NCBI GenBank assembly: GCA_009840355.1
Contig: VXNZ01000023.1
Span: forward strand, 62,001-126,000
Direction: 5' to 3'
Length of the DNA: 64,000 bases
From: Chloroflexota bacterium
GTDB lineage: Bacteria > Chloroflexota > Dehalococcoidia > Lucifugimonadales > JADFKI01
The translations under genes and the position numbers were made by a program. Under the pieces are notes generated by a model that was not told where the DNA came from, searched no databases, and worked only from the letters and a program-made list of their open reading frames with translations. This document shows, one piece after another, positions 44,180 through 49,933 of the stretch; the first letter of the stretch is position 1; each line of letters starts with the position of its first letter.

Positions 44180-45643
44180 ATGACTCGGACTATGACTATC
44201 GGCGGAGCCATACGGAACAGAATCACAAGCGCGGCATCCCGCCCCACCTCCGGCGCGTCCGTTGCGGCATTTCGGGTTGCGTTCGGGGTTCTGGCGCTGG
44301 TGGCGATTGGGCGGCTGTTTGCCAATGGGTGGATCGATGACTTGTACATCGAGCCGGTGCATCGCTTTGCGTATCCGGGTTTTGGGTGGGTGATGCCGCT
44401 GCCCGGCTGGGGGATGTATCTGCACTTTGCCGCGCTTGGCGTGCTTGCAATGTGCATTGCCGCCGGGTATCGATACCGGCTGTGCGTCGCGCTGTTCTTC
44501 GTGGGTTTCACATACTCGGAACTAATCGACCGCACGATATACCTGAACCACCACTATTGGATGATCCTCGCCGCCTTCTTGATGATATTCCTGCCGCTCG
44601 ACCGCGTGTATTCCGTGGACGCATGGCGCAACAGGTCAATGCAGGATGCCGCGATACGCCGCGGTACGGTGCAGGCGTGGGTGTTGTGGGCGCTGAGAGC
44701 GCAGGTCGGCGTGGTGTATGTGTTCGCGGGCATCGCCAAGCTCAACCCGGATTGGCTGATGCACGCGCAGCCGCTGCGAATATGGCTGTACCAGCACGGC
44801 GATATGCCGATCGTAGGGGCGTTGCCGCAAGAACTCTGGCTCGCCTACGCGATGAGCTGGGCAGGCGCAGCGTTCGACCTGACTATAGTGGGCTGGCTGC
44901 TGTGGCATCGCACGCGCCTGTGGGCATACATAACGCTGGTCGTGTTCCATCTGGCGACATGGCTGCTGTTTCCCAAGCTCGGCATATTCCCGTGGCTGAT
45001 GATAGCCGGAGCGACCGTGTTCCTGCGCCCGGATTGGCCCCTGTTGTTCCTGCGTAGTCTGCCCTTGCGCCGGGTGCCCTTGCGATGGACAAAAGAGCGC
45101 ATGGTTTCACGCGGTGCAGACACCAGCGCCTGCACGCTCGCAACGGCGCACGCCAATGGACAAGAACACGGGCAGGTTCGCCTATCCTGGACGGCGCGGG
45201 CGACAATCGTCGTGCTGGCGATATTCTCGGTCGCGCAGGTGGCGCTGCCGCTGCGACACTTCGCGTATCCGGGCAATGTGCGCTGGACAGAGGCAGGCTA
45301 TCTATTCGCGTGGCGAGTAATGCTGACCGAGAAGACGGGGCTGGTGCACTACCATGTGCGCGATTTGGACGGCGGCAAGGCTTGGCTTATCACGCCGGAC
45401 GACTACCTGACGCCGTTGCAGGTCGAGCGCATGGCGTTCCAACCGGACCTGATACTACAGACCGCGCAATTCATCGCAGACGACTTCGCAATGCGCGGCT
45501 ACAACGGCGTCACCGTGAACGCAGAAGCGTTCGTAGCGTGGAACGGCAGACCTCACGGCAGGCTAATCAACCCCGAAGCAGATTTGGCAAGCGTCAAGTC
45601 CGGCAGCATGCCAAACAAGTGGATACTGCCATACGAGAATTAA
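44180..45643 (+). CDS. HTTM-domain protein, vitamin K-dependent gamma-carboxylase-related
   Basis: The 487-residue membrane protein starts at 44180. It has at least six hydrophobic segments in its first 300 residues and a soluble C-terminal part. The segment QVGVVYVFAGIAKLNPDWLMHAQPLRIWL (residues 174-202) is the hallmark of the HTTM/VKGC family and includes the conserved Lys of the active-site region. YLNHHYWMILAAFLMIFLPL precedes it. Animal relatives gamma-carboxylate glutamate using reduced vitamin K. Bacterial members are widespread with mostly unknown substrates. The end overlaps no other gene but converges on the imelysin operon with a 15-bp gap. Confidence 0.87.
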   Translation: MTRTMTIGGAIRNRITSAASRPTSGASVAAFRVAFGVLALVAIGRLFANGWIDDLYIEPVHRFAYPGFGWVMPLPGWGMYLHFAALGVLAMCIAAGYRYRLCVALFFVGFTYSELIDRTIYLNHHYWMILAAFLMIFLPLDRVYSVDAWRNRSMQDAAIRRGTVQAWVLWALRAQVGVVYVFAGIAKLNPDWLMHAQPLRIWLYQHGDMPIVGALPQELWLAYAMSWAGAAFDLTIVGWLLWHRTRLWAYITLVVFHLATWLLFPKLGIFPWLMIAGATVFLRPDWPLLFLRSLPLRRVPLRWTKERMVSRGADTSACTLATAHANGQEHGQVRLSWTARATIVVLAIFSVAQVALPLRHFAYPGNVRWTEAGYLFAWRVMLTEKTGLVHYHVRDLDGGKAWLITPDDYLTPLQVERMAFQPDLILQTAQFIADDFAMRGYNGVTVNAEAFVAWNGRPHGRLINPEADLASVKSGSMPNKWILPYEN

Positions 45644-45658: not shown

Positions 45659-46828
45659 TCACCCCCCGTCGCCGTCGGTGTCGGCGAAGCCCACGGTGAT
45701 GTCTAGCAAGCTTACGATGTCGGTGCTGAGCGTGAGCTGCATTTGCTTGAGCGCGGCGTGCGCGTCTAGGGCGGCAGCAGGGTTGCTTTGCAGCGTCTCC
45801 GGCAGAGGCTCTTCCAGCGCGTCTATAGCGGTCAGCGCGTTTGTGAAGGCAGTTCGCATCGCGGTGTCGGTCTCTTCGGACAATCCGCGCACTAGGGCGC
45901 TCACTCCCATATCGGTGTTGCCCAAGCCGCCTTCCGCACCGCCGAGATACACATCCTGCATACCCAACACCTGATTGCGCATGTCCGCGATGGCGTTGTT
46001 TCCGCTGCTGGCGAGTATCGCGGACGGGTCGGCGTTCACGCCATCGATTCCTAGCGCCTTGCCGAGACGCATATCGGTGATAGTGCGACTCATAAACACC
46101 GAAGTGCGCACCAGTTCGTTGAGCGCGGTTTTGCCCAGCAGCGAGTCGTTCGCCGTGCCGTTGAAGAAAGTCGCGAATGCCACGCCTTCGGCATTGTTTC
46201 CGGTCCAATCCCCCAGTGCGCCGTTCGTCTCAGCAACCGCAAGTTCGCCCAGCGCCATCAGATATTGGCAGCGGATAGAGCCGGGCTGTCCCAGAGCATC
46301 GAGCACAGCGGCGTCATCGTCGAATATCACATATTCCACCGCGCCAAGTCCGCGCTGCGTTGATGCTAGGTAGTCTTTCAAGTACAAGGCATCGACAGAA
46401 TCGCGATCGGCGAGCATATTTTCGATACGCTCGGGTTCGACGGGTGCCCAATCGACATACGACCGCGTGCGGCGGTCCATCACCGGCCCGAACCACATCG
46501 CCTGCGAGCGCATCCACGGCACGCGCGCGCTGCGCCAAGCGTCCCGCGCATCGTCAAGCCGCTGCTGCGTCGGGTCGTCGCAAAGCGCGTCTAGGGCAGC
46601 CTGCAGCGCGTTCATCTCTTGCGCCACCTCCTTGAATCGCGGCACTATCAGGTCGTCCGTCGCGCTGACCAGCACTTCCGCGCGTGTCGCCGGCGGCTCT
46701 TGCGCCGTACAGCCAAGCGCCACGAACAATGCCGGCAGCAATGCGCCTACAATGGCAAGCTTGATAGCGGTGTGTCCGTTTGAATTAAGTCTAATGGATG
46801 TGGTAATAGTGGGCATAATTCGGTTCAT
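45659..46828 (-). CDS. Imelysin-like lipoprotein lacking the GxHxxE histidine
   Basis: I start at the ATG at 46828 just after GGGAGGG. An ATG four codons later is an alternative. The 389-residue protein has a lipoprotein signal ending ALFVALGC (Cys40), so it should be anchored outside the cytoplasmic membrane. Two helical repeats of the imelysin fold follow. At the place of the conserved G-x-H-x-x-E motif it reads RGLGAVEYVIF, keeping the Glu but not the His. It is the last gene of the imelysin / di-haem oxidoreductase / imelysin operon, a set linked to periplasmic iron handling. Loss of the His suggests a structural or altered metal-binding role. Confidence 0.87.
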   Translation of the reverse strand: MNRIMPTITTSIRLNSNGHTAIKLAIVGALLPALFVALGCTAQEPPATRAEVLVSATDDLIVPRFKEVAQEMNALQAALDALCDDPTQQRLDDARDAWRSARVPWMRSQAMWFGPVMDRRTRSYVDWAPVEPERIENMLADRDSVDALYLKDYLASTQRGLGAVEYVIFDDDAAVLDALGQPGSIRCQYLMALGELAVAETNGALGDWTGNNAEGVAFATFFNGTANDSLLGKTALNELVRTSVFMSRTITDMRLGKALGIDGVNADPSAILASSGNNAIADMRNQVLGMQDVYLGGAEGGLGNTDMGVSALVRGLSEETDTAMRTAFTNALTAIDALEEPLPETLQSNPAAALDAHAALKQMQLTLSTDIVSLLDITVGFADTDGDGG

Positions 46829-46896: not shown

Positions 46897-48375
46897 TCAT
46901 AGTGAGTTCAGAAACCTCAGCAGGGCTTCGCGTTCTTCGCGCGAATAGTTTCGGAAAGCCTCTTTCGCCGCCGCGCCTTCGCCGTCGTGCCACAGTATCG
47001 CCTCGGCGAGATTGCGCGCGCGGCCGTCGTGCATAAATCGCGTATGTCCGTTCACATTGTCCACAAGCCCGATGCCCCACAGCGGCGGTGTGCGCCACTC
47101 GTTGCCGTCCGCCAGAAAGTCGGGACGACCGTCCGCCAAGCCGTCGCCCATGTCGTGCAGCAGCAAGTCCGTGTAGGGGAATATCACTTGTTCGCTGAGC
47201 GCGTCGATGTCGGTCGTGCCGGTTGTGTAGCTAGGCGTATGGCAGACATTGCAGCCCGCGTTCAGGAACAGCGCCGCGCCGTCGCGTACCTGCGGGTCGT
47301 CGATGTCTCGCATTGCGGGAACTGCCAGCGTGCGATTGTAGAATGTGACCAAGTCCAGCCGCGAGTCCGGCACTTCGGGCGAGCCGCCGTTTGGCGCGGC
47401 GGCGCATTCGTCCTGACCTGCCGGGCAGTTTTCGTCCGGGAACAGCGATGATGTTATGCCGATGTCGCCATTGAACGCGCCGGCGACCTGCTGCTCCACG
47501 CTTGGCACATTCGCCTTCCAGCCGAACCTTCCGAGCCGCGTAGTTTGCCGGCGCACATCCCAGACGATGTTGGCGCGGCCCGATATGCCGTCGCCGTCCG
47601 CGTCGTCCGGATCGGCTTGCGCGAGAATGTCCGCTTCAGGTATCGCCTCGAGCAGCCCCATGCCGAACACCACGGGCGCGATGCGCGGCGAAATCATGAC
47701 CTGCGGATGCATCTGGCCGAATGCCAGCTCATCGAAAGAATACTCCGGCTTCATCAGCGTGTACCGATCACCGTCCGCGTATGTGCCGGGAATCTCTGTC
47801 CAAGTCGTCAGGAATCTGCCTTCCGGCTGCACTTTCAGGATCGCCCTATCCTGCAATTGCCCGCCGTAGTTGGGGTCGGCGACGGGCCCGCCGGTGGAGT
47901 CCGTTCCCGGAATGCTCAGCCTGAAAAGCAGCCCACGCTCCGGGTCGTCGTTGCTCAGCGGCGGCGATGCTCGCCCGTCAAGCGTGTGGCAGGACGAGCA
48001 GGACTGCGCGTTGAATGTGGGCCCTAGCCCATCGCGCGCATCCGTCGATGCCGGCGCGGTAACCCAATTCTGGTTGAAGAAACTGTCGCCCACCTCGAAC
48101 TGTCGCCGTTCGAGGTTCGTCAGATTGCGGGCGGACAGGCTGAACGCGTTGCGGTTGGACGTGAACGCGGTCGTATCGCCGCCAAGCGCGGCAGTCAGCA
48201 GCGTGTCTATCTCTGCTTGGCGCGCCGCTTGTTCGCGCTGCGACGCGATAGCCGACACAGCGATAATGGCGAACGCGCCAATCGCCAAGACTGCGCAAGC
48301 AGAAATCAAGCAGTATCGCAGGGGGTGAGCCTTAAACGCCCCTGCGATACCGTGAAAGATGTTATTCGAAGTCAA
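46897..48375 (-). CDS. Di-haem oxidoreductase (putative peroxidase) family protein
   Basis: The 492-residue exported protein has an N-terminal hydrophobic anchor (residues 21-43, with AVLAIGAFAIIAVSAIA). A covalent haem site CSSCHTLDG lies at residues 126-134, and a second haem site CNVCHTPSY near residue 380. Distal His or Met residues are not assigned. This is the DHOR family, sometimes called thiol oxidoreductase, which occurs between imelysin genes in many bacteria. Redox processing of iron before uptake is proposed from that context. Spacing to its neighbours is 68 bp downstream and 161 bp upstream. The upstream spacer contains a GGGGGAAGG repeat. Confidence 0.92.
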   Translation of the reverse strand: MTSNNIFHGIAGAFKAHPLRYCLISACAVLAIGAFAIIAVSAIASQREQAARQAEIDTLLTAALGGDTTAFTSNRNAFSLSARNLTNLERRQFEVGDSFFNQNWVTAPASTDARDGLGPTFNAQSCSSCHTLDGRASPPLSNDDPERGLLFRLSIPGTDSTGGPVADPNYGGQLQDRAILKVQPEGRFLTTWTEIPGTYADGDRYTLMKPEYSFDELAFGQMHPQVMISPRIAPVVFGMGLLEAIPEADILAQADPDDADGDGISGRANIVWDVRRQTTRLGRFGWKANVPSVEQQVAGAFNGDIGITSSLFPDENCPAGQDECAAAPNGGSPEVPDSRLDLVTFYNRTLAVPAMRDIDDPQVRDGAALFLNAGCNVCHTPSYTTGTTDIDALSEQVIFPYTDLLLHDMGDGLADGRPDFLADGNEWRTPPLWGIGLVDNVNGHTRFMHDGRARNLAEAILWHDGEGAAAKEAFRNYSREEREALLRFLNSL

Positions 48376-48536: not shown

Positions 48537-49712
48537 TTAGCTCACGCTAATCGTAATGCCAACGGCGGTTGCGGCTGAGACTATCGTATCGGTCTGCTTT
48601 TCCAGCGATTCGATTACGCGCAGCGTCTGCATGCGGCCAGCCGCGCTGTCGGGAACGCCCTCGGCGAGGTGCTGGTCGAAGGGCGACGGAATCTGCCGCG
48701 CCTGCGCGATGCTCAACTCCACTTCACCGGCGAGCTGTTCGGCGAGTTCGGGATTCTCAACCGCTATCAAGTCGAGGATACCGGGCCCCATCACAGTGCC
48801 GAAGTTGCCTTCCAGCACCATCTGGATGCCAATGGCGTTGCCCACGATGTCGGCGACGGTGTTATCGGAGAAACAGGAATGCTCGTCTTCCTGCGAGCGC
48901 GCTTCGTATGCGACAGTCATGCGCTCGCCGGCGAGTTCGCCGCGGCTAAGTTCGCCGATGCCGGTGATGATGTTCGTGATGGCTTCGTCGCTGGACAACG
49001 CGACGAAATCGGCGCGGTAATTGCCGCCACCGGGCGCCCAGGCGTTAACCATGTCGCCCAAATGAACCAGCAGCAGGTCGGACGCGACGGCGAGATACTG
49101 CGCGCGGCGGTCTGCGTTGTCGTTGGTCGTGTAGTCTTCGACGGGTCGCGCGCCGGGTCCTATGTCGTTAAGGTCCTGTCCCCAGAGCAGGAACTCGATG
49201 GCGTGCCAGCCCGTGGACACATTCTCCTCGCCGCCCTCTTCATTGAGGGACACGAGCAGGTCGGCGTCGATGGTAGGATATTCATCCGGCATGTTGATGA
49301 TGCCCGCGCTCGCATCGCCTTCCACATAGTCGATGTACGACTCGTCCATCGGCCAGGCGTTGAGCAGACCTTCAGGTCCATCCTCTTCGTTGTCGATGGG
49401 CCCGCTGTAGAAGCGGAACGCCTCGGTTGGGCCGTAGTCATCCCTTGCGACCAGCCAAGCGCGCTTCGCCGCTTCGAGCGTGGCGGGCGTGGGATTGGCT
49501 AGGAACGAGTCTATCGCCACATCCATAGCGCGCGCCGAATTCAAGCTCTGCGAGTAGCTCGCATGGACGCCATTAGCGTAGTTGGCGACGATTGCGGTTT
49601 TCAGTGCATCGACATCGACTTCCGGCTCGGACGGACCCGCCAGTTGTTGGCAACCTATCGCAAGTAGTAGGCTCATAGCCAGAACTAGAGACAAGACGAC
49701 TGTGTGTTTCAT
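48537..49712 (-). CDS. Imelysin family lipoprotein (IrpA-like)
   Basis: I start at the ATG at 49712 (391 residues). The frame upstream crosses the operator region and is not family-like. The lipoprotein signal SLLLAIGC ends at Cys21. The imelysin G-x-H-x-x-E motif is intact as GWHAIEFLLWGQDL near residue 155. A second repeat carries the pairing ERMTVAYEARSQEDEHSCFSD. Members are surface or periplasmic proteins tied to iron acquisition. Insulin-cleaving peptidase activity reported for a few does not generalise. It is the first gene of the operon and lies behind a readable promoter with operator-like palindromes. Confidence 0.92.
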   Translation of the reverse strand: MKHTVVLSLVLAMSLLLAIGCQQLAGPSEPEVDVDALKTAIVANYANGVHASYSQSLNSARAMDVAIDSFLANPTPATLEAAKRAWLVARDDYGPTEAFRFYSGPIDNEEDGPEGLLNAWPMDESYIDYVEGDASAGIINMPDEYPTIDADLLVSLNEEGGEENVSTGWHAIEFLLWGQDLNDIGPGARPVEDYTTNDNADRRAQYLAVASDLLLVHLGDMVNAWAPGGGNYRADFVALSSDEAITNIITGIGELSRGELAGERMTVAYEARSQEDEHSCFSDNTVADIVGNAIGIQMVLEGNFGTVMGPGILDLIAVENPELAEQLAGEVELSIAQARQIPSPFDQHLAEGVPDSAAGRMQTLRVIESLEKQTDTIVSAATAVGITISVS

Positions 49713-49736: not shown

Positions 49737-49751
49737 CTTAGTATATCTAAG
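49737..49751. promoter_or_regulatory. Operator-like palindrome CTTAGTATATCTAAG
   Basis: The arms CTTAG and CTAAG surround TATAT, 24 bp upstream of the imelysin start and in the transcribed leader if the promoter at 49776-49804 is used. TTAG...CTAA is the half-site arrangement of DtxR/IdeR-type boxes. Confidence 0.5.
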
Positions 49752-49755
49752 TGCT

Positions 49756-49769
49756 TTAGTACGCACTAA
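49756..49769. promoter_or_regulatory. Operator-like palindrome TTAGTACGCACTAA
   Basis: Perfect arms TTAGT/ACTAA flank ACGC, giving TTAG-N6-CTAA. It overlaps the expected transcription start of the imelysin operon. A related TGAGTACGCACTGA sits at 49877-49890, about 110 bp upstream. Confidence 0.6.
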
Positions 49770-49775
49770 TAATGC

Positions 49776-49804
49776 ATTATGTACATATGCTTTTATCTTG
49801 TCAA
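49776..49804 (-). promoter_or_regulatory. Sigma70-type promoter of the imelysin operon
   Basis: On the minus strand TTGACA (49804-49799) is separated by exactly 17 bp from CATAAT (49781-49776) in an AT-rich stretch. The start site should fall near 49768, inside the palindrome at 49756-49769. Confidence 0.72.
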
Positions 49805-49933
49805 TATATTATTATCACTTTCAGATTATGGTATTTCTCATATTCCCCAATGAATATGAAATTTAATGCGACCTATTGAGTACGCACTGACTTATGTGTG
49901 CATTTGACACGTCGCTTAATTGCGTCTGATTTG

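Follow-up and report, generated by a model that had tools for sequence, protein, structure and literature searches.

Among the closest known relatives of the system considered here are the iron-dependent repressors IdeR and DtxR of Actinobacteria. For the IdeR operator a 14-bp single-dimer consensus, TTAGGNNNNCCTAA, has been proposed. A direct hydrogen bond to a base is made by Gln43 alone, with the first C of CCTAA; contacts to the second C and to the T come from Ser37, Pro39 and Thr40 (PMC8464063). According to the literature, IdeR tolerates a change of this first C to T, and the Q43A variant still binds its consensus. At positions 10 and 102 of the primary metal site IdeR has sulfur ligands, and the manganese-responsive MntR has Asp/Asn and Glu (PMC10317159). 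Imelysin operons are governed by another regulator, Fur, in Pseudomonas and Vibrio (PMC3143127). In the open-licence literature we found no paper that treats imelysin, iron and DtxR together and no DtxR motif for Chloroflexota, and earlier work elsewhere is possible.

Here we describe an imelysin operon of a Chloroflexota bacterium of the class Dehalococcoidia whose promoter carries the palindrome TTAGT-RYRY-ACTAA. Judged from sequence comparison, this palindrome is probably the operator of the single DtxR/IdeR-family metal-dependent repressor encoded in the genome. Control by DtxR/IdeR proteins is already known, and what is new is most likely the changed operator half-site, DNA contact and metal site.

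Promoter and putative operator of the imelysin operon

The window, i.e., the whole stretch of 64,000 nucleotides that was analyzed, contains the following features around the promoter:

44180..45643, plus strand: HTTM / gamma-carboxylase-like protein (PF05090, PF22777), convergent and outside this transcript
45659..46828, minus strand: second imelysin-like protein (PF09375, E 2e-37), conserved gene order, start picked by eye
46897..48375, minus strand: di-haem oxidoreductase / putative peroxidase (DHOR; PF06537, E 2e-106), conserved gene order
48537..49712, minus strand: imelysin-like lipoprotein (Peptidase_M75; PF09375, E 4e-70), first gene of the operon
49737..49751, strand not given: CTTAGTATATCTAAG, TTAG-N5-CTAA, not accepted as operator
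49756..49769, minus strand: putative main operator TTAGTGCGTACTAA, exact match
49776..49804, minus strand: sigma-70-type promoter TTGACA-17-CATAAT, 11/12 consensus positions
49877..49890, minus strand: possible auxiliary site TCAGTGCGTACTCA, about 110 bp upstream, weak with 2 mismatches

The cluster of imelysin, di-haem peroxidase and second imelysin belongs to the imelysin (M75) iron-uptake type, and its gene order is retained in about 20 related loci. The three genes are presumably co-transcribed. In most of the related loci the cluster has as its neighbour, in either orientation, a gene for an HTTM protein that carries a gamma-carboxylase lumenal domain.

The minus-strand promoter proposed in the initial annotation was found as described, with the -35 element TTGACA at 49804-49799, a spacer of 17 nt and the -10 element CATAAT at 49781-49776. 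The main operator (exact site TTAGTACGCACTAA at 49756-49769) begins 6 nt past the -10 element, and the predicted transcription start at about 49769, some 7 nt past the -10, is its first base. The annotation had likewise placed the start inside the palindrome, which spans approximately +1 to +14 of the predicted transcript. The same annotation read the site as having the half-site layout of DtxR/IdeR boxes; this holds for the TTAG-N6-CTAA arrangement, but the half-sites are TTAGT/ACTAA and not the classic TTAGG/CCTAA.

A second TTAG-N6-CTAA palindrome had been claimed 4 bp further downstream. We rejected the sequence at 49737-49751 as an operator, since it is one base short of N6, and its offset of about 18 bp from the main site differs from the 22-23 bp that recur in relatives. 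The variant claimed about 110 bp upstream does exist at 49877-49890, where the DNA reads TGAGTACGCACTGA, with two mismatches to TTAGTRCGYACTAA, and it has the 10-mer AGTACGCACT (AGTGCGTACT in the minus-strand reading) in common with the main site; comparison with relatives gave no support for it as an auxiliary site. When up to three mismatches are allowed, the pattern is found twice in the window against 4.2 times expected from shuffles, and because such loose matches are no commoner than in shuffled sequence, counting them in the window is uninformative.

The same site at other iron genes

Unlike the window count, the search for exact sites in the whole genome was informative. In the 3.28-Mb genome, TTAGTRYRYACTAA with its RYRY core occurs exactly at two sites only, both at promoters of iron genes, namely the imelysin promoter and an iron-transporter promoter. 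The latter site lies at contig C49:31306, 11 nt past TTGACA-17-TATATT, upstream of the ferric ABC transporter operon fbpABC, which encodes a ferric-binding protein, a permease and an ATPase; FbpA belongs to the ferric-binding family (7w3w, E 1.6e-83). This exact operator and its promoter are located about 670 bp upstream of fbpA (L017:9265-9976), and a weaker site, TTTGTGCATATTAA, is found at a second TTGACA promoter directly before the gene. A recognisable site persists at both positions in a second species of the genus (G001), even though the flanking sequence has changed. The region between the distal promoter and fbpA may be a long leader or contain a small RNA; the open reading frame within it (L017:9365-9700) has no match to an NCBIfam family, i.e., it is a leader without a recognisable gene. 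A CCCTTTCTCGNGGCCGGCCCCTCTTTACCCTCCCAATAGAGGGGG-like block at about L017 9725-9785 is conserved among four congeneric species in the fbp leader and looks like a dispersed repeat element. The genome holds a third perfect TTAGTNNNNACTAA (TTAGTTTATACTAA; contig C39, L099:1501-1514), which lies upstream of prfB and not of an iron gene, and its one-mismatch sites are mostly within coding sequence or next to unrelated genes.

We scanned 147 genomes of the order for exact sites, using the reversed pattern as control, and obtained 28 sites in 23 genomes compared to 9 for the control. Most of these sites (22 of the 28, in 17 of the 23 genomes) have fbpA, imelysin or another iron-type transporter as a neighbour; in 21 cases the neighbour was recognised as fbpA or imelysin by homology, and in one it was judged by eye to be a siderophore/cobalamin-type binding protein. 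In G099 the pattern of the window's genome is repeated, with two exact sites, of which one is at fbpA and the other at the orthologous imelysin gene. No exact site occurs in 124 of the 147 genomes, so either a search for the exact consensus catches too few sites or the regulon is not the same in all genomes.

Of 30 fbpA orthologues, 6 have the exact motif upstream, against 0.01 expected from dinucleotide shuffles, and 11 have a site with at most one mismatch (5 of them one-mismatch sites), against 0.9 expected. Reversed control patterns showed no excess upstream of these 30 genes, and a gap of four was the best among gaps of two to eight. Many of the fbpA sites overlap the -10 element itself, with TATACT or CATACT within the operator, and others begin 6-11 nt past it as in the window; either placement would block the polymerase. 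For imelysin, 4 of 14 Chloroflexota upstream regions have a site with at most one mismatch, against 0.08 expected, and the remaining 10 have none within one mismatch. Upstream of 20 dtxR genes there was no excess of sites, and autoregulation of dtxR was therefore rejected.

In other orders of the class we found 10 sites. Five of them are at fbpA, and two, both exact, precede genes that were identified by eye as encoding an FTR1-like iron permease and a siderophore permease of the FecCD-like type (L226:41-1312 and L230:394-1500). The initial annotation had suggested scanning for the motif at further iron genes, and it does recur there, in the genome itself as well as across order and class. Five loci (L118, L120, L123, L124 and L130, around position 1501) have a further operator-like site at 22-23 bp from the first, and this spacing of two helical turns suggests paired dimers.

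The DtxR-family protein and its contacts

A DtxR-like regulator, on which the earlier reading depended, is present: the genome encodes a single DtxR/IdeR-family protein of 247 aa on the minus strand of contig C13 (L012:919-1662), with the helix-turn-helix domain PF01325 and the dimerisation domain PF02742 both above cut-off. Its gene adjoins a ferritin gene. The best solved relatives of the protein are IdeR proteins, and its predicted structure (mean pLDDT 86) aligns with three-domain IdeR over residues 21-245 with a Z of 24.6, including the C-terminal SH3-like domain. The manganese repressor 5zr6 matches the model with the same Z, and among the NCBIfam models the score for MntR comes close to that for DtxR, both far below cut-off.

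The gene is near fbpA in at least 10 relatives and within 10 kb of it in about 9 of 40, and three loci (L127, L132 and L231) have the motif between the two genes. All 17 genomes with iron-linked sites encode DtxR, and in G076, the only genome with the motif but no DtxR, the site stands at a gene that is not an iron gene. Since 125 of the 147 genomes of the order have DtxR, the co-occurrence of motif and regulator is by itself weak (about 0.05 by hand calculation).

The IdeR operator TTAGGNNNNCCTAA does not occur at these loci, as G5 is replaced by T and C10 by A in every site used. The layout and the other eight bases are unchanged, so that the half-site ACTAA differs from that of IdeR only at the first C. 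In the regulator, position 43 is Gly, Ala or Ser in 22/22 orthologues of the order, replacing Gln43, while Ser/Thr37 and Ser/Thr40 are kept in all 22 and Pro39 in 21/22. A nine-residue insertion precedes the recognition helix in the protein and in the 22 orthologues. The loss of Gln43 matches the change of C to A in the operator and is consistent with direct recognition. However, this falls short of proof because the independent changes are few, IdeR tolerates C to T and its Q43A variant binds; the latter implies that position 43 would modulate preference without being required for binding. In Acidimicrobiia with the same imelysin cluster, 6 of 10 upstream regions have TTAGG-N4-CCTAA boxes with at most one mismatch, against 0.03 expected, and the DtxR homologues carry Glu43. 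In the Chloroflexota genome of L039, residue 43 of DtxR is Ala and the site is of the TTAGT type.

The primary metal site is also altered, as Met10 is replaced by Asn and Cys102 by His in 22/22 orthologues, while the primary ligands Glu105 and His106 are retained. The ancillary ligands His79, Glu83 and His98 are conserved in 21/22, including the protein of the window's genome. Because the Met10/Cys102 primary site is absent, we assign the protein to the DtxR family and not to IdeR itself. From the target genes and the ferritin neighbour we infer that iron is the activating metal; this is not certain, as the primary ligands differ from those of IdeR and the fold is equally similar to that of a manganese repressor.

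Proposed regulation and alternative explanations

We propose that when iron is sufficient, a metal-loaded DtxR dimer would bind the 14-bp site at approximately +1 to +14 and block transcription of the imelysin, the di-haem peroxidase and the second imelysin. When iron is scarce, DtxR would release the DNA and the operon would be expressed together with fbpABC, which carries the same operator. Binding and repression by DtxR are presumed here from the operator and the regulator, and the metal from the target genes. The idea in the initial annotation of an iron repressor covering the start site is thus favoured by the comparisons above.

A sensor of manganese that resembles MntR, reading the same operator, would account for Asn at position 10, which occurs in some MntR proteins, as well as for the equal structural Z of 5zr6 and IdeR and the nearly equal NCBIfam scores. 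We nevertheless consider it unlikely, as the targets are imelysin and ferric-binding transporters, the neighbouring gene encodes ferritin, and position 102 is His and not the Glu of MntR. Control of the promoter by a Fur-family protein instead of DtxR is very unlikely. The genome does have four PF01475 matches, one of them a fragment, and Fur has this role at the imelysin operons mentioned above, but an excess of Fur boxes was not found in the 14 Chloroflexota imelysin upstream regions, whereas the same test was positive in proteobacterial and other orthologues (20/52 with at most four mismatches against 3.4 expected). The layout of the motif is moreover that of DtxR/IdeR sites, and dtxR shows genomic linkage to the targets.

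The lack of enrichment of loose matches in the window and the perfect site by prfB might suggest a chance palindrome on an ordinary promoter. This is highly improbable given that the two exact RYRY-core sites both stand at promoters of iron genes, with matching spacing from the -10, that the orthologous imelysin gene in G099 has an exact site, and that the motif is in excess upstream of imelysin genes. Preferring DtxR as the repressor, we lean towards a wider conclusion, which is less firm than that for the operon itself: an iron regulator common to the Dehalococcoidia may have replaced Fur at ferric transporters and imelysin clusters. It would be a DtxR subfamily that reads the shifted single-dimer operator TTAGTRYRYACTAA, with Gln43 lost, an insertion in front of the recognition helix and an altered primary metal site (Asn/His/Glu/His).

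Comparison with known systems

For SAR202-like and other Dehalococcoidia, almost all of which are uncultured, the results supply both an operator motif and a candidate for the regulator of iron genes, so that iron-stress genes can be predicted in them from sequence. The change of residue 43 together with operator base C1 is a natural specificity change with which the reading of DNA by DtxR-family proteins can be tested, and the primary metal site of the orthologues is a natural variant as well. Furthermore, the same imelysin cluster carries a Fur-type, IdeR-type or Chloroflexota-type site in different phyla.

Compared to the Fur-controlled clusters, the locus has the same imelysin, di-haem peroxidase (EfeB/DUF1111 type) and second imelysin, with iron control being predicted here, but a DtxR-type operator is present and no Fur box. 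The manganese-responsive MntR, ScaR and SloR (5zr6) share the fold, and Asn10 occurs in some MntR, whereas His102, the iron-uptake targets and the IdeR-type operator layout set the present system apart. With IdeR/DtxR of Actinobacteria it shares the three-domain fold, the TTAG-N6-CTAA layout, iron-uptake targets, the Ser37, Pro39 and Thr40 contacts and the ancillary metal ligands. It differs from them in having TTAGT/ACTAA instead of the TTAGG/CCTAA of TTAGGNNNNCCTAA (PMC8464063), in the replacement of Gln43, in the nine-residue insertion and in the changes of Met10 to Asn and Cys102 to His.
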